Shown here in pieces: positions 2-23,885 of a stretch of DNA of 23,885 bases; the stretch's first letter is position 1, and every line of letters starts with the position of its first letter. Location of the stretch: positions 1 through 23,885 of the IMG/VR virus record IMGVR_UViG_3300044641_007819; one strand, 5' to 3'. Source of the stretch: a virus. The notes beneath the pieces were generated by a model, which worked only from the letters and a program-made list of their open reading frames with translations, was not told where the DNA came from and made no database searches. The position numbers and the translations under genes were made by a program.

Positions 2-316
2 ATTCACGACGAATTCTTTGCTAATACGGCAGATATGCTTAAAGCTAGAAGCGCATTAAGACAAATTTACTCTGAAATGCTTAATAACAATGTTATTATA
101 ATGACATTAGATGAGATGAAAGCAAGAGGGCTTCCTAAAGAATTGTATGATAAGTATTTAAATGAAGCTATTGATATTGGATTAATCCCTATTGCTGGTA
201 GATCCAGGATTGGTGGCAAGGTTATAAAAGAAACTGACATTCTCAATAAAGATGATATACTCAAAGAAATTCCTAAGGGATTTTCTAATGATTATGGATG
301 GTATGGGGTAGGCTAA
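2..316 (+). CDS. C-terminal part of an unidentified phage protein (5' end outside the window)
   Basis: The frame is open from base 2 with no stop, so the gene probably begins upstream. An internal ATG at 35 has no ribosome binding site, and I do not take it as the start. The visible 104 residues are mostly helical and charged, then carry a short basic, glycine-containing stretch (GRSRIGGK) and end in an aromatic tail (YGWYGVG). It sits directly upstream of the scaffolding gene, where portal, protease or minor head proteins are usual, so a head role is likely from position only. I recognise no family motif. Confidence 0.6.
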   Translation: MHDEFFANTADMLKARSALRQIYSEMLNNNVIIMTLDEMKARGLPKELYDKYLNEAIDIGLIPIAGRSRIGGKVIKETDILNKDDILKEIPKGFSNDYGWYGVG

Positions 317-1023: not shown

Positions 1024-2208
1024 ATGACTGTTAAGACAAACCTGGCTGGTGCCGATAACTTCGTTCTTCAAGACGCTATTAGCGCTTATTCTGACGAAGC
1101 CTACACCACCGCTCGTAAGCTCTCGGGCACTGGAATTGTTGGCTCTAATCCGCTTATCGACACTTCGACCGAGACCTTTGTTGGTCAAGTTCGTTGGTTT
1201 AAGCCGCTGAACCCTACTATCAACATTGCATCTTTAACTGATGCTGCTGATGGTACACCTACAACCTACAGCTCTGACTATGTGTCGTATATTAAGACCG
1301 TTCGTACGCATGGTGCTACTAAAGTTAACATGCAGCAAGTGGTTACACAGCAAGACGGTTTAGCTAAGATTGGTCGTGACTTTGGCGAAACGCGTGCTCA
1401 AGACGAGCACAACGCTATTCTGGCAATCCTTCGTGGTGTTGCTTTATCTGAAGCGTTGAACGGTGCTGCTACTGGCTCTGGTGCTACTGGTCTTGGTGGT
1501 CAAACGTTTGACAATGACCCGACCGATCGAAAGTATGGCTTCTATGTTGACTTGGGTGCATCTAAAGCAATTGTTGACGCTACTGCAAGTATTCAAGGTG
1601 CGGCTCGTGCTGAAGGGTTCTTAAAAGCTTTTGGTCAAGCTTATAAGGATTATGAGCCTGAGTATGCCTACCTTGTTTGCTCGCCTGAAGTTGTAGCGTC
1701 ACTGCGTTCAGCTAATCTGGTTGATCAGATGACGGTTAGTGAAGCTAATGTCACTTTTAGTACTATTTTTGGTGGCAAATTTAGACTGATTCAAACTCGT
1801 GCTTCGCAAGGCTTTAGTACCGCTGATTTGACAAAGATCAACACTGGTGCTGGTGTTGATATTGTTGGTGCTAAAACATCCTTTATCGTTCTTCCCGGCG
1901 CACTTGCCATGGAAGCGCTGATGGTTCCTGAGTCGGTTGAAATTGAGCGTAAGGCTGCTGCTTACAAAGGTGGTGGTACTACCTCCGTTTGGTATCGTTG
2001 GGGTTACGTGATGCATCCGGCTGGCTACAACTGGAACGGTCTTGACAGTGCCTTCCCGTCTGATGCTGACTACCTTGCCGTCAGAGCAGGTACAGCGAAT
2101 CCTACGACATTGACCGCAGCTACGATCGGTACTACTTCAACCGGTGTTTGGACGAGAAAAGCAACATCTGCTCTTAGCCTGGGCATTCTGCCAGTTTTCC
2201 ACTCGTAA
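1024..2208 (+). CDS. Major capsid protein
   Basis: This 394-residue protein follows the scaffold and precedes the head-tail adaptor, the standard place of an HK97-fold coat protein. Its length fits. A good site (AAAGGA) precedes the ATG. It starts with an extended polar N-arm, followed by mixed alpha/beta sequence containing LAKIGRDFGETRAQDEHNA, which looks like a spine-helix region, and ends with a Thr/Ala/Gly-rich tail. Codon use stands out: most Arg codons are CGT, while neighbouring genes use mainly AGA, and local GC is higher. This is what a very abundant protein tuned to host tRNAs would show. No long N-terminal delta domain is visible, which agrees with the separate scaffold. The exact capsid subfamily is not determined. 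Confidence 0.85.
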   Translation: MTVKTNLAGADNFVLQDAISAYSDEAYTTARKLSGTGIVGSNPLIDTSTETFVGQVRWFKPLNPTINIASLTDAADGTPTTYSSDYVSYIKTVRTHGATKVNMQQVVTQQDGLAKIGRDFGETRAQDEHNAILAILRGVALSEALNGAATGSGATGLGGQTFDNDPTDRKYGFYVDLGASKAIVDATASIQGAARAEGFLKAFGQAYKDYEPEYAYLVCSPEVVASLRSANLVDQMTVSEANVTFSTIFGGKFRLIQTRASQGFSTADLTKINTGAGVDIVGAKTSFIVLPGALAMEALMVPESVEIERKAAAYKGGGTTSVWYRWGYVMHPAGYNWNGLDSAFPSDADYLAVRAGTANPTTLTAATIGTTSTGVWTRKATSALSLGILPVFHS

Positions 2209-5010: not shown

Positions 5011-5336
5011 AGTTTAATATATCTGTAAAAGGAATTGAAAGAGAATTTGCTAAGTTATTACAATCAAGAGATTTTGAATCTAAGAAACAGGCAAGGATAG
5101 AAGTATCTAACATGGTTTCTGAATTAAGACAACAGACACCCGTTGACACAGGGCTAGCAAGAGCATCTTGGAAATCATCAGAATCTGACAAATACTTTTT
5201 AGTTGAGAATACTACTGACTATATTCAATACTTGAATGAGGGTTCGTCTAAACAGGCACCAGCCAGGTTTATAGAATCTACTGCATTAAAGTATGGAAAT
5301 CCTATTGGGACTATAGTTGATATAAAAGGCGAATAA
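5007..5336 (+). CDS. HK97-gp10-like tail completion / neck protein
   Basis: A 109-residue protein with the signature of the HK97 gp10 family: T-P-V-D-T-G at residues 44-49, followed by A-R-A-S-W, then a strand VENTTDYIQYLNEGSS (about 66-81) and AP-x-R-F-I. An N-terminal amphipathic helix precedes this. Family members usually act in the neck (tail completion; the SPP1/HK97 type). Here the gene is not in its usual place between stopper and tube protein but after the chaperones and just before the tape measure. It starts inside the ATGA overlap with the chaperone extension, so it is probably translationally coupled. Confidence 0.7.
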   Translation: MKFNISVKGIEREFAKLLQSRDFESKKQARIEVSNMVSELRQQTPVDTGLARASWKSSESDKYFLVENTTDYIQYLNEGSSKQAPARFIESTALKYGNPIGTIVDIKGE

Positions 5337-5342
5337 GCCCAT

Positions 5343-5372
5343 ACCCAGGATTTTATACTAATCCTGGGTTTT
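5343..5372 (+). terminator. Rho-independent-type hairpin upstream of the tape measure gene
   Basis: ACCCAGGATT (5343-5352) and AATCCTGGGT (5360-5369) form a perfect 10-bp stem with a 7-base loop, followed by TTT. It lies seven bases after the previous stop codon and 18 bases before the tape measure start. It could end or reduce transcription from the head and tube genes, or stabilise the upstream mRNA 3' end. The U run is short, so termination may be partial. Confidence 0.7.
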
Positions 5373-5390
5373 AAATTGAAAAGGAACCGT

Positions 5391-8300
5391 ATGGCAATAG
5401 TATTAAAAACCATATCGGATTCTAAAGACGCTCAAGCAGACCTTGCTAAGCTAAAAGAATCCGTAGGTAATATAGAAAGCAGTGCAAAAAGAGTATCAGA
5501 AACTTTTTCTAATTTTACCAAAGTACTTGCAAGTAGTGCTGGACTGATTGCGGGCGTTGTTGGCCTTACAAGAATGTCTGATGCTGTTACAAATTTAGAA
5601 TCTAAACTAAAAGTAGCTACAGACTCTCAATTAGAATTTAATATTGCCTTAAGAGAAACAAGAGAAATTGCAATAAGTTCACGAACAGATTTAAATTCTA
5701 TTACTAATTTATATAGTAAATTAAATCGTTCTGCAAAAGGATTTGGAGCATCGCAGTCCGAGGTTTCTCTAGCTACCTCATTGATAAGTAAATCAATTGC
5801 AACATCTGGTGCAAGTCTTCAGGAGTCTAACGCTGCTGTTCAGCAATTAGGGCAAGCACTGGCATCGGGAAAACTTGCTGGTGATGAGTTACGCTCTATT
5901 TTAGAAAATGCACCACCATTAGCCGGTGCAATTGCAGACGGATTAGGCGTTTCAATTGGAAAACTAAGAGAACTCGGTGAACAAGGGGTTCTTAGTTCTG
6001 CGAAAGTATTTAAAGCAATTTTAAGTCAACAGAAACAAATAGAATCTAGCTTTGCAAAAGTTGATATAACATTTGGACAAGCTTTTCAGAACTTAAGAAC
6101 CTCATTATTTGTATTAGCATCTGAGAGTAAAAGAGCAGTATTAGGGGCTACTGGTGGGTTAGCTAATGCGATTAATAACGCTGCTAAAGGAATATTTGAT
6201 TTTGCCTCTACTTTAGGTTTGACGTTTGCTTTAGCAAAACTTAAATTGTTTTTATTTGTAGCAGATGTTGAAATAGGTTTTGCTGAAATTAAAAGGTACT
6301 TATTTAAAGTATCAGATGAAATTTATGTCTTTGCACAAAATCTTTATAATGATTGGCAGCCAATTATTCAAGCTCTAATAAATGATCTTTTATTGTGGTC
6401 AAAAATTGCCTTAGCAAGCTCTATTGCAGTTGGCAAATCCTTATATGACTCTTTTTCTAAAACAAATATTGGCAAGTACTTAATTGACAATATAGAGTAC
6501 GCTATAGGAAAAATAAGCGTACTAGTAAATTCTGCATTCTCTTATCTTAAAGAAAAACTTCCAAAAATAGATATACTAAAAATTTTTCCTGGTTTACAGA
6601 AATCTTTAGAAATAGTAAAAAACTGGGCAATAAAAGTAGAAGGCTGGTTTGCCTGGCTTTATAATAAAATCATTGGAAATTCGTGGATACCTGATTTAGT
6701 TATTAAAACAACCGAATGGCTGTCAGAGCTATTAGGCAAGCCTCTAACTAGTGTTATTTCTTTTGTAAATAAGTCAAACGATATATTCTCTAAATTTGGA
6801 GGAGGCCTTCTTAAAAATATAATTAGTATATCAAAAGCTGCAATACTTGCTGCAACAGCATCGGTTTTAGCAATCCAATTTATTGTAAAACCTTTGTTAA
6901 ATAAAACAGGGTTTGGTGAAAGCGATGGTTTCAAATTTACAACGCCATTAGAAAGAATTGTTGAAGCAACTAAGCCAATATTTAAAAAGTTAACTGACAG
7001 ATACGAAGATTTATTTATAAAATTAAAAGAGATATTTTCTAACTTTAAAAATATTTTTAATTTCGAAAACAAAGTCAGCGATCTTTTACCATCTAGTTTA
7101 AAGCTTGGTTTAATTGCAGCGCTTACTGGCGTGTTTGCATTTGCAATTGTGTCAGCTACACAAGCTGGTATAGTAAGAACTGCATTAACGACATTACTGT
7201 CTCTTGGAGCAGGTGTTGTTGCTTATAAAACTGTTCCAAAAGCAGACATCTATGAAGTCGGTTTTTCTATAGGCTTTGCATTTTTAAGTGTAATAGAGAG
7301 AGGTATTACCGGTATTTTTAGTGGAAGTGTCCTCAATGATCCAACAAAGCTTTTTGCTACTTTGCTTAAGTTGGGTTTATTGTTTGAACAAGGAAGAAAA
7401 GTAATTGGAAATGCTGCACTTCAAATTGCTTCAGCACCTACTAGAGCAGCGCAGTCCGCATCTTCTGCATTAGAAGGCGCACTTCTCAGAAGAGATATTA
7501 GAAAGACAGACACAGAACTCGCAAAATTACCTACTAATTTAAACTCTGTATTAAGAACCAATAAAAACGCTCTCAATGCCACTGTTGCAAGACTTTCAAC
7601 ATTAACAGACTCTAGTGGAAACGCAATTGGAAATGCCGGTGCCAGAGCTGCAATTGCTTCTGGTAATCTAAACACATTTGGAACAGCTGCATCAAGAGCT
7701 GAAATTGCAAGAGGTGCTGCACAACAAGAAGCAGTAAATGCAGCCAGGAGCAATTTAAGTCAAATAAATAATCTGAGAACAGAATTAACTGAGAGTAGAG
7801 CTAGGTCAGCTGAAAGAGAAGAGGGCATAAGAAAAAGACTTGAAGAGCAAAGAGCTCAATTAAGACAAGGGACAATAAATGCAGCTGCAGGAGCTGGTGG
7901 TATATTGGGTGGCGTTGCCGGATTCCAAATAGGTACTGAAGTTGCAAGAGGTATGACTGATAGCCCTGCATGGGTTAAGGTCGGTACTGCAGTAGCTATT
8001 TCTTTTGTTGGTCAAGCAATTGGTGCTGGAATTGGTGCATTAATTGCTCAAGGTATTTTGGCAGCTTTAGGAGCTGGAATTACATTTGTTGGAACTCTTT
8101 TAGCAAGCCCTATTGTACTCGCTGGCTTAGCGATCGCGGCAGCAATAGCAGCTGTAATGAATTGGGAAAGTCTTGTAAAAGTCTTTGACAAAGTAAAGAA
8201 AGAGCTGCCTGAGTTTATTAGTAAAAGCTTTAATACCTTTATCGATTTCTGGAATAAAAAGGCAGAGCCTGCCTTAAAAACATTCATTACCGATTTCGAA

Positions 8301-10723: not shown

Positions 10724-11320
10724 ATGGCGTTATACGGTATCTATGAAGGCGGAAAGGTGATTGCTGGTTTTGCTAGTCCTATGACAGTAAAAAGCAATCA
10801 GCCAGTTTCTGTTTCAGATACCCTTTCTCTAAAAAGACAGATATCAAAAAGAGCGGTTCAAAGATGGGAGATTACAACAGCTCTCGAACCGCTTTCATAC
10901 GATTCTAATACATTATTTGTCAATTTAGTAACTAAGGGTTTTTCTGAGACGGTAAGTGTATTAATGCCTCAAAACTATGGGGCAAAATTAAAGCGTACAG
11001 CTACAGGTAACTTTACGGCTACTGGTGGTGTAAACGCTACTCAGTTAACTACTTCAGCTATTACTGGAATTATCCCTGCAGGTACGTTTATTAAGTTTGC
11101 AAATCATTCTAAAGTATATATGTTAACCGCTAATTTGACAAGTGCAGCTGTTCTAAATATATTTCCTAGTTTGATGACGGCAGTATCAGCTACAGCATTT
11201 ACGTATAAAGATGATGTAATAATGAGTGCGCTTTATGATACTGAAGTAACTAGAGGAATGGTATTCTCCGATGGCATTTTAATGGATATGGGCACTGTAA
11301 CGCTCATAGAAAAGCTATGA
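10724..11320 (+). CDS. Distal tail / tail tip protein
   Basis: A 198-residue beta-rich protein two bases after the tape measure stop codon, the usual position of the distal tail protein or gpM-like tip component. It has an N-terminal strand pair (YGIYEGGKVIAGF), a K-R-x-x-x-K-R-A-x-x-R-W-E-I-T-T-A-L-E-P stretch (about 40-56) that resembles Dit-like rings, a central TTSAITGIIPAGTFI segment that looks like a small inserted barrel, and a closing TVTLIEKL strand. Its stop and the next start overlap (ATGA). The role, joining the tube to the hub, is inferred from context; I did not see a catalytic motif. Confidence 0.6.
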   Translation: MALYGIYEGGKVIAGFASPMTVKSNQPVSVSDTLSLKRQISKRAVQRWEITTALEPLSYDSNTLFVNLVTKGFSETVSVLMPQNYGAKLKRTATGNFTATGGVNATQLTTSAITGIIPAGTFIKFANHSKVYMLTANLTSAAVLNIFPSLMTAVSATAFTYKDDVIMSALYDTEVTRGMVFSDGILMDMGTVTLIEKL

Positions 11321-11886: not shown

Positions 11887-14800
11887 TGGCAGTTTTAACT
11901 ATATCTGGAGTTGTAATTGCTAGCCTTTCAACTTTAGCAACTATAGCTCAAACTACTATCTTTCTTGCATCTATGGCATATCAGCTTAGACAAGCAAGAA
12001 AAGCCAGAAAAGCTGCAAGAGAGGCTGCAGAAGCTAGAAAAGGTTTTCAATTAGTTTCAGAAGGTCAAGTAGAAACACTACCAATTGTTTATGGAAAAGC
12101 TTTAATAGGCGGTACTAGAGTCTATCATAATACTAGTAGTTCTTTTGTTTATGCCGATCCAAATGGACAGAAAGTGCTTTCAACAGGCAGATCTGCGACT
12201 CCTGGTGGAACATTAACATATCAATCGCCAGATGGCGGCAGCGTAACTGAAACATACGCGGGAACAGCAGCAGGCTCATTAAATCAAAATATTACTGGTT
12301 CAAAAAATGAATTTCTGTTTTTCCAACAAGCCTTATGTTTAGGACCAATTAACGCTGTTTATGATGTAGTAATCAATGAGAATACTTATATTGATGATCC
12401 TGCATTAGGCGATACGCACACGGAGGTTGTATTTAAGAATGGTGCATTTGTAAAAGATAGCTCTCCAAAAGCAGCTCTTAGATTTGACTTTCATTACAAC
12501 GGTGGTGCTGATTCAATCATGGCTGCTAATTTCAATGATAGGGCAGCTGCTGAATTCAATAATATTGCTTATTTATCTGCCGTTATTCGTTTAGATAGAG
12601 ATGAACCTCAATTTAATCAAATTCCTAATGTTCAGACATTTATTGAAGGTAGAAAAGTAAAAACAATAGATGCAGCCTATGCACTTAGTATTGTAAAAAC
12701 ATATTCAAATAATCCTGCGTATTGTTTATTAGATTATCTGTTAGATAATACTTCTGGAAAAGGGCTTACTGTTGATCAAATTGATTTAGTTAGCTTTAGA
12801 GCTGCTGCCCTAGTCTGTGATACAGTTGTTCAAAATAATGCGTATGTTGGTGGAAAGTTATATCAAACCACTGATAAACTTAGAAATACAACAGCTAGAA
12901 ACTTACCGTTATATGAATGCAATATTATTGTAGATGTAACAAAGCCCACAAGAGACAATGTTGAATCAATTCTTGCTACAATGGGTGATGCAAGACTTGT
13001 GTGGTCTCAAGGGAAATATAAGCTATTACTGCAATATCCTTCAAACAATGATAATATTGTATTAGCTGCTACATTGACCGATGATGACCTGGCACATGAT
13101 ACGCCAGTTGAGCTTTCATGGCCTACAGCGTCTGATAGGTTAAATCATTGTATTGTAAGATTTAGTAACGAGTCTGAAAATTTTAAAGAAGACTCTGTAT
13201 CTTGGCCACCTAAAACAAACAGACAAGAGAAACGTGGTATTGGTGGGAAAAGATACATTGCTGTGTCTGGTTGGGAAGCTGAAAAGGAAGGTGGTGCGTT
13301 TCTTAACAACTACGCAGTTTGGAGCGGAGGTACCGAAACTACAACACTAACGTGGAAAGTTATACCATCTGTAACAGGTGTTCATACTGTTAAATATACT
13401 GCTGATAGTACTGCTACTCTTAGTATATCTACATATAGTGGAACTCAATCAGATTGGAGATTTATCAAAACAGGTACAGTAAGCCTTACTGCTAATGTAG
13501 AGTATACAATCACAATTAATGCAAGTAATTCAGCTGCGCCTGATGGTAGAGGTGTTGCTGGAACTCTTACAGATCCTAGCTCAAATGTAATTTGGACTAC
13601 TAGAAGCGAATCTTATAGTTCATTTATTAATATTGCTCAGACAAATACTGTATATACTCAGATGCTAACTGAGGACAATAATGTCCAACTAGAAACAGAC
13701 ATTTTTGCAGAAGGTGTAACTGATTATTATCATGCTCTTGCTAAAGCAGAAGAATTAGTAAGAACAAGCAGAACAGCCACTGCTGTTACTTTTCAATATA
13801 TTGTAAAAAATAAATATCTAGAGCCTGGCGATATTATTAGAATTAATAGTAACGCGTTAAATCTAGGAGTTTCAAGTGCTCTATATGTAAAGATTGATGA
13901 AATAAAATTACAAGATGGAGCTATTGCAGAAGTAAAAGGGACAAGATTTGATTATACACAATTGGCTTGGTCTGTTAAAGACGATCAATATATTAAACCT
14001 GCCAATATTTATAATTTCTTTCTCAGTGCTCCGTCAGCGCTAATTTACACTCCTGGCAATAATGTACTAACTGGCTCTCCTGGAACTCTTACTTGGGGCT
14101 TATCGCCTGAGCCGAGTATAAGTGGTTATATTTTATACTTTCACGAAATAAATGATCTTGCTGCTAACGGTCAGCCAAATTTTGTAGAAATAGGAAGAGC
14201 CGCTGCACCACCTTTTTATGTGCCTGATTTAAAGTCTAAGGTTGGAATTTTTGGTATTCGTGCATTTACGAATAGTATAACTTCCGATATGACTGTTACT
14301 AGTACAACACAAGCTTTTCTTGTTGATGTAAACTTGACACCACCTACTGCAACTGGAGTTAGCAGTAGTAGATATGGCACGTATAATCAATCTCTAATTA
14401 TAAGTTGGACAATCCCAAGCAATCGTGCTGGTGGTTTGAATATACCATACGATGATCATTCTTTTGCTAGAGTATATAGAGCTGTGTACACAACAGGTGA
14501 ACCGACTTATACAGAAATCGGTACATCTAGAACAGGTTTCTTAATTGATTATACTCCTGTCTTTGGAACACTTAGATATAAAGTAAAGCTAGTAAGTTCT
14601 CGAGGTCTAGAAGGCGCTCTTTCTGCTGCTAGTACTGATATATCATATTCTTATAGTGACTTCACAAATACTGCTCAAGTAATTGCTTCGTTGTCTAATT
14701 CAATCACATCTACTCAATTAAATACAACTCTAAATAATAGAATTAATTTAATCGATACTCCAACAACTGGCCTGGTCACTAAAGTTGGCGACTTAGAAAC

Positions 14801-18922: not shown

Positions 18923-19672
18923 ATGGCAAGTATTGCAGTATGTACACCTATGTATGGCGGAATGTGTACTGGAGATTTTACTGAATCTCTGATTGATCTA
19001 AACCGCGTGTTAGCCGAAAATGGGCATGAATTTCATTTTATTTACTTAACGAATGAATCTTTAATTCAGCGCGGAAGAAACACTCTAGCTTGGTTTTTCT
19101 TGAATACAACTCAAGCTACTCATTTGCTTTTTATTGATGCTGATATTGGATTTAAAGCAACTGATGTGTTACAAATGATTGAGGCAGACAAGGGTATTAT
19201 TGCAGGTATTTACCCTAAGAAAGCCATTTCATGGGACACGGTAAAAGCTGCCTATAACAGAGATATTGAGAATCCAGAAAGATTCTCTGGAGTTTTTGTC
19301 TATGATTTAAAAGAAAAGCCCGATAGAATATTCTTTGATCAACCACTTTTATTGAAGAATGCTGGCACAGGCTTTATGCTTATTAAGAGAGAAGTATTTA
19401 AAGAGTTAGAAGAAACAGTAGGTTACTATATAAGCAATAATTACACTCAAGACCGTAATCAAAAAATATTTAATTACTTTCAAGTAACAGTAGAAGAAGA
19501 CACCCTATTATCAGAAGATTATTTCTTTTGCAGGGCTTACCAAAAGATTGGCGGCGAAGTGTACGGAGCACCTTGGTGTAACTTTAGACATTTAGGTACT
19601 TATCAGTTTAGTGGCTCATTTGTAGAGTCGCTAAAGTTACGTGATCCGAGCTTTTTTAATAACAAGAATTGA
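18923..19672 (+). CDS. Glycosyltransferase, GT-A fold
   Basis: A 249-residue soluble enzyme. An N-terminal strand (SIAVCTPMYGG, 3-13), a helix, and LLFIDADIGF (68-77) with the D-A-D metal/nucleotide-sugar motif (72-74) define a GT-A Rossmann-like domain. A-G-T-G-F-M-L-I-K-R (147-156) and L-S-E-D-Y-F-F-C (196-203) are the usual acceptor-side segments, with E198/D199 as the likely catalytic pair. No membrane helix is present. It should transfer a sugar from a nucleotide donor to an unknown acceptor: modified phage DNA, virion protein or host surface. It begins its own unit after the structured spacer and lies before the lysis genes. Confidence 0.8.
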   Translation: MASIAVCTPMYGGMCTGDFTESLIDLNRVLAENGHEFHFIYLTNESLIQRGRNTLAWFFLNTTQATHLLFIDADIGFKATDVLQMIEADKGIIAGIYPKKAISWDTVKAAYNRDIENPERFSGVFVYDLKEKPDRIFFDQPLLLKNAGTGFMLIKREVFKELEETVGYYISNNYTQDRNQKIFNYFQVTVEEDTLLSEDYFFCRAYQKIGGEVYGAPWCNFRHLGTYQFSGSFVESLKLRDPSFFNNKN

Positions 19673-19718
19673 AAGTTTTGTTTAGCCAACCCGTTAAATT
19701 AACCCAAGGACGTCCCCT

Positions 19719-19954: not shown

Positions 19955-20503
19955 ATGTTAGAAATGGTCTCTGCTGCATTTGGATTCTTTGCTCCATTCG
20001 GTACTGAGCTATTTAAGTATTTTCAAAGAAAGCAAGACAATAGTCACGAGCTTGCAGTGATGACTATTCAGGCACAAATTAAAGCACAAGAACATACGTA
20101 TCGTATGGATGAAATTGGTGCTGCAACAGATGCTGAAGAAGTTAAGTTAATACATCAGCCAATGAGTTCCTTCGGTGTGCAACTATTAGATGCGGCTAAG
20201 GGACATAATATGAATCCTGTTGCGTTATGGCCTGCATTCTATGCCTTTGTACTTTTGGATTTTATTTCTAGCCTGGTACGTCCTTCTATAACCTATGCTG
20301 CATTTGCATTCTATGCTGCTGTAAAATGGGCTCAACTTAATGTAGCATTAGCAGATGAAGCTAACTGGGAACGAGCGGTTATATCAGTGTGGAATTCAGC
20401 TGATATGTCGATTGTTATTCTTGTATTATCATATTGGTTTGGTCAACGTGCTGTTAAGGCTGCATTTGGAGGCTCAGCTAATACTAGCTATAGAGGACAA
20501 TAA
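19955..20503 (+). CDS. Holin, three transmembrane helices (GTA-holin-like)
   Basis: A 182-residue protein. The N-terminal 90 residues are soluble and helical (with KLIHQPM at 64-70). Three membrane helices follow: about 89-107 (ALWPAFYAFVLLDFISSLV), 112-128 and 150-166. R-P at 109-110 sits in the first loop, a mark of the 3TM holin family (PF11351-type) that also serves gene transfer agents. It would form holes in the inner membrane at the lysis time and let the endolysin, which has no export signal, reach the wall. RBS AAAGGA. Its stop overlaps the endolysin start (TAATG). Confidence 0.75.
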   Translation: MLEMVSAAFGFFAPFGTELFKYFQRKQDNSHELAVMTIQAQIKAQEHTYRMDEIGAATDAEEVKLIHQPMSSFGVQLLDAAKGHNMNPVALWPAFYAFVLLDFISSLVRPSITYAAFAFYAAVKWAQLNVALADEANWERAVISVWNSADMSIVILVLSYWFGQRAVKAAFGGSANTSYRGQ

Positions 20504-21003
20504 TGAGTCCAGAAGTAGAGGAACTTGCTAGCTCCTTAGCAAAGCCATTCGAACGATTCTTTTCTAAAGCGTATTGGGATCCACATCCTGATGGTCTTCC
20601 AACACAAGGCTGGGGTAGATTGCTTTCTAGATATAGTCTTCGTAAACATCTAGAAGAAGGCAAAACAAGAGAGCAAGCCTATCAGTGGCTTCAACTTAGG
20701 TACCCTCCTATTGACCTTGAAATAGGAAATCTTTGGTTAGCTCAAGATTTAGCTGTTGCAAATAATGGAGTACGTAATTATGTTAAAGTCCCTCTTACAC
20801 CACAGCAAGAAGCTGCTCTTACTGATTTTGCTTTTAATCTTGGGGTGGGTAATCTTCAAATAAGCACTTTATTACGACTGCTAAATAGAGGCGATTATAT
20901 GGGTGCTGCCGGACAATTTAGAAGATGGAATCTAGCAGGTGGAAAAGTCCTTCCAGGTCTTACTCGAAGACGAGAAGCAGAACGTGTAATGTTTTTATCC
21001 TAG
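20503..21003 (+). CDS. Endolysin, T4-type lysozyme (GH24 muramidase)
   Basis: A 166-residue enzyme. E17, D26 and T34 match the E-x8-D-x5-T catalytic triad of T4 lysozyme, with two extra residues before the Thr, in F-E-R-F-F-S-K-A-Y-W-D and P-T-Q-G-W-G. The helical lobe holds LTPQQEAALTDFAFNLG (98-114), and the end R-R-E-A-E-R (157-162) is typical. There is no signal peptide or anchor, so it depends on the holin. It cleaves the beta-1,4 bond between MurNAc and GlcNAc. Translation is coupled to the holin, and a strong terminator follows at 21010. Confidence 0.92.
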   Translation: MSPEVEELASSLAKPFERFFSKAYWDPHPDGLPTQGWGRLLSRYSLRKHLEEGKTREQAYQWLQLRYPPIDLEIGNLWLAQDLAVANNGVRNYVKVPLTPQQEAALTDFAFNLGVGNLQISTLLRLLNRGDYMGAAGQFRRWNLAGGKVLPGLTRRREAERVMFLS

Positions 21004-21009
21004 CAGTAC

Positions 21010-21035
21010 AAAGCCCCGCTGAAAAGTGGGGCTTT
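21010..21035 (+). terminator. Strong terminator after the lysis cassette
   Basis: AAAGCCCCGCT (21010-21020) pairs with AGTGGGGCTTT (21025-21035) as an 11-bp stem with one G-U pair and a stable GAAA tetraloop. The stem ends in TTT, then AAATC. This is a classic intrinsic terminator, closing the lysis operon. The stem's A/T-rich base would let it work on the opposite strand too. Confidence 0.9.
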
Positions 21036-21053: not shown

Positions 21054-21305
21054 ATGCCGTATGATAAGAATAGAAAACGAGATTATAAAAAAGAATATCA
21101 ACAAGATCTAAAAACAGGTAAGTCTGGACCTGGAAGTGATCAAAATGAACGTCAAAAAGCCAGACGAATGTACGACAGTATGGGGGTAGATAGATCCGGT
21201 AAACAAATTGACCATAAGACACCGATTCGAAATGGTGGAAAATCTACAAAATCAAACTTAAGATTAAGAGACCCCAAGAAGAATATGTCTGACAACGGAA
21301 AATAA
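21054..21305 (+). CDS. Small HNH-like protein
   Basis: An 83-residue basic protein. I start at the ATG at 21054, behind AAAGGA; a longer frame from 20925 overlaps the endolysin and crosses the terminator. Q-I-D-H-K-T-P-I-R-N-G-G-K (51-63) then S-N-L-R-L-R (67-72) and N77 follow the D-H-x-x-P-x-x-x-G-G ... N-L ... N outline of HNH/His-Me nucleases. The N-terminal half has a Lys/Arg-rich helix with D-x-K-x-x-x-x-E-Y. There is no zinc-binding CxxC, and the last metal ligand is Asn rather than His. Similar short proteins occur in many phages. A DNA-binding or nicking role is possible, but nuclease activity is unproven. Confidence 0.6.
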   Translation: MPYDKNRKRDYKKEYQQDLKTGKSGPGSDQNERQKARRMYDSMGVDRSGKQIDHKTPIRNGGKSTKSNLRLRDPKKNMSDNGK

Positions 21306-21319
21306 GTCAACGGGTGTCA

Positions 21320-21362
21320 AAATAAAACGCGGAAATAACGGTATCTTATATGATACGAAGAA
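21320..21362 (+). repeat. Promoter-like repeat, copy A
   Basis: The same sequence recurs at 21644-21686 with 3 mismatches in 43 bases, including a 31-base identical core (21325-21355) made of AAACGCGGAAATAACG then GTATCTTATATGATA. Copy A begins 14 bases after the HNH-like gene and lies about 50 bases before the ATG at 21411. GTATC and GATAC (21341-21345 with 21352-21356) form a dyad around TTATAT, and TATGAT resembles a -10 box. No sigma70 -35 is present upstream, so the core may be read by a phage polymerase or bound by a regulator. Confidence 0.65.
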
Positions 21363-21410
21363 GTACTACTTAACAATCCCGTTAAGTAGAAGTCCCCAAA
21401 GGAGGGCATG

Positions 21411-21611
21411 ATGGCACTCATTAGGCCAGGTGATACCAGATGTAGATGGGATTACATCTACATCACCGATGAAGTTAAACTTCATGTGGCTGGTCTTGGC
21501 GAATTTACGATATCCGATTTTTTGGATATTGTAAGAGCGTACAAGGAAGACTTCCCTGCTGATATCAAAGACAGACTCAATAAAGAGCTGCGTCTTTTGA
21601 TCGACAGGTAA
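21411..21611 (+). CDS. Small protein of unknown function
   Basis: A 66-residue protein. The start at 21411 has AAAGGAGG five bases upstream; the ATG at 21408 would leave only 2 bases and is less likely. The sequence starts with a compact beta-like part (WDYIYITDEVKLHVAGLGEFTI), then helices (SDFLDIVRAYKEDF, IKDRLNKELRLLID). No Cys pattern, signal or DNA-binding motif is clear. It follows repeat copy A and lies upstream of copy B, so it probably has its own transcript. Confidence 0.65.
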   Translation: MALIRPGDTRCRWDYIYITDEVKLHVAGLGEFTISDFLDIVRAYKEDFPADIKDRLNKELRLLIDR

Positions 21612-21643
21612 GTCTTAGACCTGGGCATGTCTTAAAAAGGCCC

Positions 21644-21695
21644 AAATTAAACGCGGAAATAACGGTATCTTATATGATAGAAAGAATCTATCATA
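21644..21695 (+). promoter_or_regulatory. Promoter-like repeat, copy B, with 5' leader hairpin
   Basis: The 43-base repeat (21644-21686) is followed by an overlapping 9-bp stem: TATGATAGA (21673-21681), loop AAGAA, TCTATCATA (21687-21695). This is 28 bases ahead of the start at 21723, with AAAGGAG between. If the element is a promoter, the hairpin would be near the 5' end of the mRNA and could protect it. A second weak hairpin (TGGGC at 21622-21626 with GCCCA at 21640-21644) lies upstream and might end the preceding transcript. Confidence 0.6.
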
Positions 21696-21722
21696 ACCTA
21701 ACTTGACCAAAGGAGTCTCAAA

Positions 21723-22253
21723 ATGAAGAACGCAATTATTAACGCTATTGTCGCATTTATCGCATTTCTGGTTATTTCAGTTTTGTTTATTTCATGCGCT
21801 AACGCACAAACGTTAGAAGAACGAATGAAAGAAAATACAAGTAAGATAATCAAGCATCAGACTTGTAGTGAAACAGCTTTGTCTCGTGGTGTGTTTTATA
21901 GTGCCGGAACTGGCGCTGTAATTCTTGGTACAGCAGGTGCAATTGCAATTGCTACTAGCCCGATTACGGTGCCTGCTAGTGTTATTGCAGGTTCGGCGGC
22001 AATCTATGGTGTTTCAGGTGCATTTGTTGGTAGTACAGCATCTCTCGTAACGCGTATTTCCGATGATAATTTTTTCAATACTAACGTGTTGAAACAGAAT
22101 TGTCAAATTAAATATGCAAAAGAGAGTGTGTCTAAGTTTGGAGATGCGGTTTCAAATATGGCTGATGCTGTTGGAGACGCTGCCTCTAAAGCTGGAGATG
22201 TGGCAGCTAAGACTGCAGAAGAAATGAAATCACGTATTAAGAATTTCTTTTGA
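21723..22253 (+). CDS. Exported glycine/alanine-rich membrane-associated protein, unknown function
   Basis: A 176-residue protein. Residues 1-28 are a signal peptide, with likely cleavage after A-N-A (26-28); a lipobox-like I-S-C at 23-25 is an alternative. The mature part has Cys47 and Cys121 or thereabouts, able to form a disulfide. A glycine/alanine-rich hydrophobic region (about 58-110) has small residues in GxxxG-like spacing and could insert as two helices. The C-terminal 50 residues form an amphipathic helix with repeats such as GDAVSNMADAVGDAASKAGD. It has its own repeat-associated promoter candidate and AAAGGAG site. An exclusion or envelope-altering protein is possible; I recognise no family. 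Confidence 0.65.
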   Translation: MKNAIINAIVAFIAFLVISVLFISCANAQTLEERMKENTSKIIKHQTCSETALSRGVFYSAGTGAVILGTAGAIAIATSPITVPASVIAGSAAIYGVSGAFVGSTASLVTRISDDNFFNTNVLKQNCQIKYAKESVSKFGDAVSNMADAVGDAASKAGDVAAKTAEEMKSRIKNFF

Positions 22254-22263
22254 TATACTGACC

Positions 22264-22286
22264 TGAACAAGTCATTAAACTGTTCA
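22264..22286 (+). terminator. Weak inverted repeat followed by a T-rich run
   Basis: TGAACA (22264-22269) pairs with TGTTCA (22281-22286) around an 11-base loop. About 25 bases later comes TTTATTTTTTT (22303-22313). It could be a weak terminator for the exported-protein gene, but loop and spacing are poor. The 74-base gap otherwise holds only the AAAGGA site of the next gene. Confidence 0.3.
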
Positions 22287-22327
22287 TTATTCAACAATTG
22301 TCATTTATTTTTTTCAAAGGACTTAAA

Positions 22328-22699
22328 ATGAAACTTCCGCAATTGTATTGTTTTCTTGCGCAAACATATGAATTATACACGGGTCACGCAATCAAACTTG
22401 AAGAAATACAGGAAGCGATTGTTGAGTACCATAGTGGTAATAAGGATATTGCAGCAATGAACCTTGGAGCTTGTCCTCCTCTTGAATTCAAAGGCAGTAT
22501 TGATGAGGGATTTTATAGATCTCTTCTTAGGACCAACGAGCATGTTGTAGTGGAAAATGGATACGTAAAGTTTTATGTATCCAAAGAAGAACATGAAATG
22601 TATCAGGCTGTAGATAAGTTCTTAAAACTTGCCAATAGCTTTTATAGTACTTGGCTTACGCGCAGAAAGGCCAACTGGCCTGGATATGAGTATCAATAA
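22328..22699 (+). CDS. Protein of unknown function
   Basis: A 123-residue soluble protein. I start at the ATG at 22328, behind AAAGGA; the TTG at 22298 lies in the T-rich leader. The N-terminus is helical (QLYCFLAQTYELYTG, then IKLEEIQEAIVEYHSG), the middle has an F-K-G-S-I-D-E-G-F turn region, and the C-terminus is a helix (EHEMYQAVDKFLKLANSFYSTW) with W-L-T-R-R-K-A-N-W. No known motif is seen. It is the first of a closely spaced run that continues to 23368. Confidence 0.6.
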   Translation: MKLPQLYCFLAQTYELYTGHAIKLEEIQEAIVEYHSGNKDIAAMNLGACPPLEFKGSIDEGFYRSLLRTNEHVVVENGYVKFYVSKEEHEMYQAVDKFLKLANSFYSTWLTRRKANWPGYEYQ

Positions 22700-22710
22700 G
22701 GAGTTTATAA

Positions 22711-22929
22711 ATGAAATTTTTTAAAATTTTTGAAAAACCTTCGGCACTAATGTTAGCTCAACAAGATCTTGAGGAATGTAAGAGACAGTATTTGGTTGCA
22801 AAGAAAGCCGAAGAGCATTATCGGCACGTTGCAAAGTCTTATGCAAAATCTATTAATAGATTAGAGAATTATATTGGAGTTGGAAATGCAATTTTACATA
22901 GGCCATCCAGCCTACAAACACCCGAATAA
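22711..22929 (+). CDS. Small coiled-coil protein of unknown function
   Basis: A 72-residue protein with AAGGAG site. Residues about 14-55 form one long charged helix (LAQQDLEECKRQYLVAKKAEEH onward) with coiled-coil character. The last 25 residues are polar and overlap the next gene by 44 bases, in another frame. No signal peptide. Function unknown; it might be a partner of the neighbouring small proteins. Confidence 0.6.
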   Translation: MKFFKIFEKPSALMLAQQDLEECKRQYLVAKKAEEHYRHVAKSYAKSINRLENYIGVGNAILHRPSSLQTPE

Positions 22930-23104
22930 CTTTGAAATAGCTTCTAGTAAATCAGAAGCTATTAAAATGCTTCGGGAAAGGGGTGTTACGAGAGATGCTG
23001 CTCGTAACACTCTTAGAAGAGCAGGGAAAGGAGAACACTCTTTTTGTTCTCCTAACTTATCAGAAGATATTATTGAAGTAATTTTAAGAAAGGATCTTAA
23101 ATGA
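22886..23104 (+). CDS. Small basic protein of unknown function
   Basis: A 72-residue protein that starts inside the preceding gene. I pick the ATG at 22886, which has GGAG six bases upstream; a TTG at 22874 is the longer choice. The middle (S-E-A-I-K-M-L-R-E-R-G-V-T-R-D-A-A-R-N-T-L-R-R-A-G) has a helix-turn-helix-like spacing with a glycine/valine turn, so DNA binding is possible but not shown. It overlaps the next start (ATGA). Confidence 0.5.
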   Translation: MQFYIGHPAYKHPNNFEIASSKSEAIKMLRERGVTRDAARNTLRRAGKGEHSFCSPNLSEDIIEVILRKDLK

Positions 23105-23196
23105 AGAAATTTGGAATTTACACATTTCAAGTGCTGCTAGGGTCTTTCCTTATTGGTGGACCTGTTTTGTTTTATCTTCTTTTTATGTTGAAATAA
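23101..23196 (+). CDS. 31-residue single-helix membrane peptide
   Basis: This very short gene begins in the ATGA overlap, with AAAGGA seven bases upstream. The sequence is M-K-K-F-G-I-Y-T-F-Q and then a hydrophobic helix (VLLGSFLIGGPVLFYLLFML) ending in Lys: one membrane span with a positive N-terminus. Such peptides in phages can be lysis regulators, host-inhibitors or exclusion factors. Translation looks coupled to the gene before it and to the next, which begins two bases after its stop. Confidence 0.5.
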   Translation: MKKFGIYTFQVLLGSFLIGGPVLFYLLFMLK

Positions 23197-23197
23197 T

Positions 23198-23368
23198 ATG
23201 TACATGATTAAAATACCATATAATAAAAAGAATATTGAAAGCAAAAGTGTTATACCCAAAATGGTTAAGGTCAAATCTTTACGTGGACCAGTTACGGAAA
23301 TTTCTTATATTAGATGGCAAGAAATATCCCGTCAGTACCCTGGGATATTTACTATCGTACAACAATGA
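23198..23368 (+). CDS. Small basic protein of unknown function
   Basis: A 56-residue frame, one base after the membrane peptide's stop; ATGs at 23198 and 23204 are both possible, and neither has a strong ribosome binding site, so coupling is likely. The sequence is Lys-rich in the first 30 residues and ends with an aromatic, strand-like part (RWQEISRQYPGIFTIVQQ). There is no known motif. The gene may be real, given its tight placement, but support is modest. Confidence 0.4.
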   Translation: MYMIKIPYNKKNIESKSVIPKMVKVKSLRGPVTEISYIRWQEISRQYPGIFTIVQQ

Positions 23369-23392
23369 CAGCTTATAATAGGACTCTTTAAA

Positions 23393-23545
23393 ATGAAATC
23401 TTTAATTGTTATTATTTCTATTCTTATATCTGGTTGTACAACTACATATACCGGCGGTGTTGTAGATACTAGTAAAATAATTTACACCACTAATAAATAT
23501 GGTGAAATTCAATATCACAAACCTGCATTAAAAGTAATGCGCTAG
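23393..23545 (+). CDS. 50-residue lipoprotein
   Basis: A short protein with lipoprotein signal: M-K, hydrophobic SLIVIISILI, and a lipobox ending S-G-C at Cys15, followed by T-T-T-Y-T-G-G. The mature part is only 36 residues. It lies 24 bases after the previous gene, with AGGA nine bases before the ATG. Its 3' coding end carries GCATTA-AAAG-TAATGC, a 6-bp hairpin. It directly precedes a protein with N-terminal membrane helix and coiled coil, so the two could be an outer- and inner-membrane spanin pair, or an exclusion pair. Confidence 0.6.
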   Translation: MKSLIVIISILISGCTTTYTGGVVDTSKIIYTTNKYGEIQYHKPALKVMR

Positions 23546-23552
23546 AGTTAAC

Positions 23553-23578
23553 ATCTTATATGATAGCGCAAGCTATTA
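23553..23578 (+). promoter_or_regulatory. Promoter-like element, diverged copy C, with GCAA-tetraloop hairpin
   Basis: ATCTTATATGATA (23553-23565) matches copies A and B over 13 bases; the part upstream has diverged (TTAAC in place of the AACGG step). It overlaps a 7-bp stem, 23561-23567 with 23572-23578, closed by a GCAA (GNRA) tetraloop. The next start lies at 23601, with AAAGGAAC between. Chance occurrence of this 13-mer once more in 24 kb is about one in a thousand. Confidence 0.55.
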
Positions 23579-23600: not shown

Positions 23601-23885
23601 ATGAACTCGACTATTAAACTTATCTTCTCATTAATGCTCGGTACAATAGTCTCATTTGTATTTATTACACTTACAGTTGGAGGCTCAGTACATTTTTACA
23701 TCACTCAATTAGAGAAAAAGAGTGCGCACCACGTAAATCTTGCAGATGCCTTATATATTCGTATGGAAAGTATTATACAAAACAATACTATTACAATTAA
23801 AAACAAAGACGAGGTGATTAAGAATAAAGACGAAAAGATTGCAAGTCTTACAAAGGATCTTATTAGATTGGAAAGTCAACTCGAA
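23601..23885 (+). CDS. Membrane-anchored coiled-coil protein, 3' end outside the window (possible inner-membrane spanin)
   Basis: The frame starts with ATG after AAAGGA and is still open at the last base, giving 95 residues. Residues about 5-32 form one membrane helix (KLIFSLMLGTIVSFVFITL), after which the chain is charged and helical: LEKKSAHHVNL, then N-K-D-E-V-I-K-N-K-D-E-K-I and L-T-K-D-L-I-R-L-E-S-Q-L-E, a heptad-like coiled coil. N-in anchor plus periplasmic coiled coil is the layout of Rz-type i-spanins, and a small lipoprotein gene lies just upstream. It could also be a different anchored coiled-coil protein; the missing end would decide. Confidence 0.6.
   Translation, partial: MNSTIKLIFSLMLGTIVSFVFITLTVGGSVHFYITQLEKKSAHHVNLADALYIRMESIIQNNTITIKNKDEVIKNKDEKIASLTKDLIRLESQLE

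Follow-up and report, generated by a model that had tools for sequence, protein, structure and literature searches.

A conserved 28-base element upstream of small genes in a siphovirus: a probable promoter of a phage-encoded single-subunit RNA polymerase, shared with candidate satellite islands

The IMG/VR virus record IMGVR_UViG_3300044641_007819, a stretch of 23,885 bases that was analysed as a whole and is referred to below as the window, bears head, tail and lysis genes of a siphovirus and, towards its right end, three copies of a short repeated sequence. All of them lie on one strand, and a small gene follows each. An initial annotation had regarded this repeat, together with the hairpins adjoining it, as a possible phage-specific promoter set or, alternatively, an operator. 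The locus thus raises the question of what the repeated element is, and which polymerase would read it.

The repeat was found as described. Its first two copies share 43 bases with 3 mismatches, including an identical stretch of 31 bases (21320-21362 and 21644-21686, 93% identity), and their core, TATCTTATATGATA, occurs exactly at 21342-21355 and 21666-21679 and with one mismatch (CATCTTATATGATA) at 23552-23565, always on the plus strand. The proposed search for the core at up to 2 mismatches returned five matches on both strands together, with 0.55 expected, and none of 100 shuffled sequences reached that number. Although the three-copy repeat withstood analysis, the 14-base core did not prove to be the functional unit. 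The full element comprises 28 bases including the core, YGCGSAAAWANNGG[T/C]ATCTTATAT|GAWA, with an upstream GCG[G/C]AAA box that the initial annotation overlooked and that stands 13 bases 5' of the core in all three copies, the third included. The pattern GCG-N11-ATCTTATATGATA is present three times on the plus strand and not at all on the minus strand, and it appeared in none of 200 simulated windows. From the end of the core to the ATG codons at 21408, 21723 and 23601 there are 52, 43 and 35 bases, respectively. The remark that no normal -35 box is visible was also borne out: sigma-70-like sites occur in the region at chance frequency (16 versus 14.4 expected), the copies do not conform to TTGACA-N16-18-TATAAT, and the listed sites overlap none of them. 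A search of the window against Rfam gave no match.

An exact scan of 2.9 million viral contigs for GGTATCTTATATGATA yielded 82 stretches, which formed two groups. Those of the first have the upstream box, giving the composite [T/C]GCG[G/C]AAA[A/T]ANNGGTATCTTATATGATA, in surroundings that otherwise differ; those of the second lack it, resemble chance or coding matches, and were used as a natural control bearing the bare 16-mer. A second scan, with the composite GCGNAAANNNNNNTATCTTATATGA, gave 109 stretches, and 171 sites were kept once near-duplicates had been dropped. In these sites the core begins with T or, in some, with C (as in window copy C), and it is followed by GA and then mostly by A or T, sometimes by G. 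The sequence of the element is unchanged across phages whose whole genomes, as fetched, range from 34 to 66% G+C. Random occurrence of the repeats inside coding regions, which had been named as the observation that would speak against a promoter set, was not seen: long open reading frames cover 76% of the related genomes, yet 54 of the 56 sites present there at up to 2 mismatches are located outside them. At one site (locus L187, about 12722-12746, minus strand), an apparent tRNA-Leu gene starts about 20 bases or less 3' of the element.

The element is associated with a phage RNA polymerase. When the single-subunit RNA polymerase family PF00940 was sought in whole records, 35 of the 38 with the composite element proved to have it (the other three are fragments, 18, 24 and 27 kb long). 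The second scan contributed another 46 records, of which 45 have it, which brings the total to 80 of 84 records chosen by the element; none of the 11 control records with the bare 16-mer contained it. The reverse test was independent of the motif: 51 loci were fetched solely by a related T7-like polymerase gene with at least 4 kb of upstream sequence, and at 50 of them the element was found upstream, on the coding strand, with up to 3 and mostly 0 or 1 mismatches. Neither the reversed pattern nor the opposite strand gave a single match at these loci. The initial annotation had suggested looking for a phage RNA polymerase or sigma gene, and a polymerase was indeed found, the end of one such gene lying in the window itself. 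These counts, the position of the sites outside long frames and the presence of the polymerase support its proposal of a phage-specific promoter set. What is observed is a sequence of about 20-28 bases, conserved and asymmetric, that lies upstream of genes on their coding strand, as expected for promoters of single-subunit phage polymerases, in phages encoding such an enzyme. Judged from these sequence comparisons, the element is very probably a promoter of a phage-encoded single-subunit RNA polymerase.

The transcript most likely begins at or near the G of TATAT|GA, because hairpin stems start there and the spacing to the ribosome site and ATG fits. Stems of at least 6 bp beginning from this G are present at 22% of the 171 sites, compared with 3% in shuffled sequences, and in 111 of the 171 a ribosome site and an ATG follow within 60 bases of the predicted +1 (median 38 bases). 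The leaders in the window fold as had been noted, with the strong hairpin of copy A standing some way past the predicted start; an immediate 5' hairpin as a constant part of the unit, on the other hand, was not upheld at the frequency just given, and such a hairpin is better regarded as frequent but optional.

The phages in question share one gene order: portal, a giant gene, scaffold, capsid, tail, tail tip, lysis, small genes with the elements, T7-like polymerase, DNA polymerase, exonuclease and primase-helicase. Two of these genes encode RNA polymerases. The giant protein, of about 1,545-1,880 amino acids, contains both Phage_Mu_F (minor head protein) and RNA_pol domains above the Pfam cut-offs, and its PHROG matches are to head morphogenesis and RNA polymerase. 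A structural model of its last 766 residues was of moderate confidence (mean predicted local distance difference test score, pLDDT, 62.5), and all the 50 best Foldseek matches listed for it were T7 or mitochondrial RNA polymerases. The window phage carries this fusion, since the beginning of the window encodes its end. In DSS3_VP1 and EBPR siphovirus 1, the gene (for example L093:6538-11172 elsewhere) carries no annotation beyond minor head protein or hypothetical protein. The second enzyme, of about 745-785 amino acids, matches T7 RNA polymerase (E 1.6e-43); the window phage should have the gene for it immediately past the right edge of the window. Sequences resembling group I intron cores (GGTGCAACGACTA ... 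GATATAGTCTG), recognised by eye, split RNA polymerase, giant polymerase and terminase genes in G010, G016, G025, G031, G034 and others, as well as in EBPR siphovirus 1 (28997) and DSS3_VP1 (5315-5397).

Which of the two enzymes would use the element may be judged from the arrangement of sites. In 32 loci compared with 7 kb on either side of the T7-like gene, 68 elements lie 5' of this gene and none within or 3' of it. Word counts in non-coding parts revealed another sequence, motif 2 (ACCCGTTAAATTAACCC), which is present in most of these phages, always on the coding strand, and precedes the genes for scaffold and lysis as well as the gene that follows the T7-like polymerase. Across the 32 loci, motif 2 stands after the polymerase gene (28) or 5' of the promoter cluster (25 of the 26 upstream sites). 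Some motif 2 sites are followed by a CCC...GGG hairpin, with stems of at least 5 bp in 9 of 69 sites and 2.0 expected. In Thermus phage P23-45, a virion polymerase fused to the tail tape protein reads an AT-rich motif 5' of pre-early genes, the gene of the second polymerase among them, and this second polymerase reads another motif (PMC10770324). By analogy with P23-45, we tentatively take the virion polymerase as the reader of the element and the T7-like enzyme as that of motif 2. Provided that the element is a phage polymerase promoter at all, we favour the virion type as its reader with some confidence, and consider the T7-like type possible but not probable.

Under the favoured assignment, the virion polymerase, as a part of the minor head fusion, would be delivered into the cell along with the DNA and would transcribe the early region, which runs into the T7-like polymerase gene; its transcripts would extend from the predicted G start into a small gene, frequently via a 5' hairpin. 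The T7-like polymerase would then use motif 2 for the replication, structural and lysis genes.

No isolate with the exact form of the element was found, as a BLAST search against 50,697 phage records produced matches at chance level alone. It was not found in EBPR siphovirus 1, a relative by its capsid, nor was the exact form in DSS3_VP1 (Naomviridae), the isolate relative of these phages. DSS3_VP1 shares with them homology and gene order; its major capsid protein is 41% identical and its polymerases are 30-37% identical (about 35% and about 31%). It does contain two identical 25-base copies of a sequence, GAGAAAACTAAGGCATCTATAATGA (35797 and 36244, with no third), between the tape-measure and RNA polymerase genes, and the second of them runs into a GATAGA-ATGAAA-TCTATC hairpin much like that of window copy B. 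Because of their position, duplication and hairpin, we take these copies for a diverged form of the element.

The element also turned up outside phages. Twenty stretches with it were retrieved from 84,980 bacterial and archaeal genomes; as about 7.5 matches would be expected by chance according to our own estimate, lone genome matches were not trusted, and what follows rests on a repeated island context and on a reverse test. More sites were present in 131 Brevundimonas genomes and in 299 from the family to which the Erythrobacter match belongs, and the reversed pattern was almost missing there. In the context that they share, the element is accompanied by one or two members of a small gene family with no known function (termed F1) and by a VapE, primase-like or AAA gene, with a divergent XRE repressor gene beside the element in several islands. 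A tyrosine integrase gene lies 3.0-6.6 kb downstream of the element in nine of ten islands examined, most islands have a tRNA-Thr gene upstream, and in three of them perfect repeats of the tRNA end (46-47 bases) at the far side delimit lengths of about 15-17 kb. An integrase and attachment-site repeats are marks of phage satellites, and the cargo includes type I restriction systems and, by eye, a RloC-like gene. Island family L397-L415, in Brevundimonas and sphingomonads, is associated with tRNA-Thr. In the gammaproteobacterial loci L352, L353, L356, L357, L361 and L423, the element precedes another unknown family (PHROG 28971), and a serine recombinase or terminase-small-subunit-like gene is nearby in some of these.

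For the reverse test we started from F1, which is present in 12 of the 131 Brevundimonas genomes; in each of these 12 a same-strand copy of the element, at no more than 2 mismatches, precedes F1, and a second F1 locus in G121 has none. Among the 119 genomes without F1, the element at up to 1 mismatch occurs in two only, G051 and G220, and in G051 it belongs to a reduced island with neighbouring genes from the same families. As the genomes lacking F1 are nearly devoid of the element, no host regulon is visible outside the islands. Brevundimonas sites of the GCGCAAAAGATATAATCTTATATCA type, with 2 mismatches and in high-G+C genes, were set aside as unrelated. Of the genomes with a match in the bacterial and archaeal scan, 18 were searched for the phage polymerase and 17 lack it, the exception being a phage contig in a bin. 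Leaders of the Brevundimonas islands can likewise fold into a hairpin starting at this G, and the changes in it are paired (stems of at least 6 bp in 6 of 25 sites, 1.0 expected). Apart from the element (36 bases, 92%, G053 versus G035), ten islands had no DNA in common with the phage genomes at E up to 1e-3, and motif 2 was not found in the ten island regions. The tRNA-Thr islands of Brevundimonas and sphingomonads hold the element once and lack the polymerase. The simplest interpretation, which we consider somewhat more likely than not, is that these islands of alphaproteobacteria are satellite-like elements in which a single phage promoter copy 5' of a replication-integrase operon would permit induction by promoter mimicry: the polymerase of an incoming phage, perhaps already the virion-carried one, would transcribe and activate the island operon. 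We found no report of satellites using a promoter of the helper's single-subunit polymerase in the literature searched.

The occurrence of the element in bacterial chromosomes devoid of any phage polymerase could also mean that it is a promoter for host RNA polymerase, possibly acting with a host activator, common to phages and islands. We consider this very unlikely: sigma-70 hexamers were not found, the motif is constant across phages of very different G+C content, and the matches with up to 1 mismatch in the 131 Brevundimonas genomes fall in islands or their apparent relatives, which leaves no host regulon; a host sigma promoter was rejected on lack of hexamers and regulon. A repressor operator, or an RNA-processing or stability element, would suit the imperfect palindrome of the core (TATC...GATA), the hairpins after some copies and the XRE repressor gene that adjoins the element divergently in many islands. 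The common GAAA variants, however, disrupt this palindrome, there is no mirrored counterpart of the GCG box and a strong immediate hairpin is missing at most sites, so that such a function is hardly to be expected, and no support was found for the operator alternative of the initial annotation. A promoter hairpin upstream of the start, of the kind known from coliphage N4, was tried and rejected, as the TATC/GATA pairing is broken in the GAAA variants and there is no other consensus stem.

The promoter of a phage polymerase remains the reading we prefer, and within it the choice of enzyme is a closer matter. Promoters of T7-like polymerases are asymmetric, double-stranded and about 23 bases long, with a G as +1, and no hairpin stands 5' of the start of the element, unlike in N4 virion-polymerase promoters. 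The T7-like enzyme could accordingly read the element and drive its own gene, leaving motif 2 or another sequence to the virion enzyme. This we regard as doubtful, since the element is situated solely 5' of the polymerase gene, while the structural genes have motif 2 instead, and the layout is that of P23-45, whose virion polymerase makes the transcript of the second polymerase (PMC10770324). Several points weigh against our interpretation. The phages are related, so that co-occurrence partly reflects shared ancestry and the counts are not independent trials; the force of the evidence is that 28 bases are conserved between differing flanks. The start position was deduced solely from the hairpins and the conserved GA at that point, and the window is a fragment whose T7-like polymerase gene is deduced from relatives. 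The copies in DSS3_VP1 match the consensus at 15 of 23 positions, which by itself is chance level, and a comparison of polymerase columns with the GCGG and GCGC promoter variants singled out neither polymerase.

The features of the window are collected in the table. Relatives of the 176-amino-acid protein encoded after copy B were sought in viral contigs and none was found. Directly 3' of the endolysin gene lies a small HNH-endonuclease-like gene (21054-21305; PHROG 4590, Pfam HNH slightly under the cut-off), and a gene for a lipoprotein-like product of 50 amino acids (23393-23545) has relatives near elements in G025 too. Between the tail and lysis genes, the gene at 18923-19672 is annotated as glycosyltransferase in one relative (PHROG 1574) and has relatives in cyanophages and rhizobial phages. 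A palindrome, GAGTTGTACTC, occurs beside or just 5' of the ribosome site of the scaffold gene in nine related genomes, for example G023 at 11259.

Table. Position of the element copies, their leaders and other features in the window
Feature	Position	Strand	Remarks
C-terminal end of giant minor-head-protein/RNA-polymerase fusion	2..316	+	opens in catalytic motif IHDEF; overlooked in the initial annotation
Major capsid protein	1024..2208	+	52% identical to EBPR siphovirus 1, 41% to DSS3_VP1; places the phage
Motif 2, ACCCGTTAAATTAACCC, 5' of lysis genes	19689..19705	+	single copy in the window; candidate promoter of the other polymerase; overlooked in the initial annotation
Endolysin	20503..21003	+	final late gene 5' of the promoter cluster
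Inverted repeat AAAGCCCC...GGGGCTTT, 3' of endolysin	21010..21035	+	terminator-like; by eye; absent from the terminator-scan list
Copy A, putative promoter element CGCGGAAATAACGGTATCTTATATGATA	21328..21355	+	predicted +1 = G21352
Leader hairpin of copy A, 9-bp stem CTACTTAAC/GTTAAGTAG	21366..21389	+	14 bases 3' of predicted +1
Small gene after copy A, 67 amino acids	21408..21611	+	no Pfam or PHROG match
Copy B, putative promoter element	21652..21679	+	28 bases identical to copy A; predicted +1 = G21676
Leader hairpin of copy B	21675..21693	+	7 bp from T-1, at predicted start; longer counting bases 5' of +1
Gene after copy B, 176 amino acids	21723..22253	+	signal-like N-terminal segment; no family match
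Copy C, putative promoter element TGCGCTAGAGTTAACATCTTATATGATA	23538..23565	+	core and correctly spaced GCG box; predicted +1 = G23562
Leader hairpin of copy C, 7 bp, GCAA loop	23561..23578	+	
Gene after copy C	23601..23885	+	cut by the window end

If our interpretation is correct, the element provides a promoter code for a large, mostly uncultured clade with two single-subunit polymerases, one of them head-fused, so that early and late genes of this clade could be read from sequence alone. It would also make testable how satellites sense an incoming virulent phage, and the promoter might be usable as an orthogonal transcription part, with DSS3_VP1 as a cultured relative. The Naomviridae (DSS3_VP1, DSS3_PM1) resemble these phages in gene order, in having both polymerases and in a diverged double element at the same place; they differ in being marine, in their diverged promoter sequence, in that motif 2 was not found and in that the second polymerase is missing from the annotation.

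Promoters of T7, T3 and SP6 are short, asymmetric, highly conserved and AT-rich beside the G start. With its predicted start at a G, the element is like them in all these respects, but it has another sequence, with a box about 22 bases 5' of the start, and occurs in 2-5 copies per genome clustered 5' of the polymerase gene, with none at structural genes. Coliphage N4 likewise combines a single-subunit virion polymerase with a second single-subunit polymerase in one phage, and a PDB sequence search with the profile of the fusion gave N4 RNAP2 as its sole, weak match (E 0.039). N4 virion-polymerase promoters are DNA hairpins upstream of the start, whereas no such hairpins are present here. P23-45 offers a closer parallel in layout, having a polymerase fused to a virion protein, a second polymerase, and two motif classes in different parts of the genome, as found here. 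Its enzymes, however, are of the two-barrel kind and the fusion is to the tail tape protein, while both polymerases described here are single-subunit enzymes of T7 type, according to PF00940 and to Foldseek matches of T7/mitochondrial type, and one of them is fused to a minor head protein of Mu F-like kind.

The islands resemble phage satellites (PICI, P4-like and PICMI; PMC10803314) in their integrase, replication gene, regulator, tRNA attachment repeats and defence cargo. PICMI satellites are activated by virulent phages through a helper-activated alpA, whose own trigger is not described as a shared promoter in the part of that report consulted (PMC10803314). The operon of the islands opens with a copy of the putative phage polymerase promoter; should the islands indeed respond to this enzyme, a promoter of 28 bases would itself serve to detect the infection.

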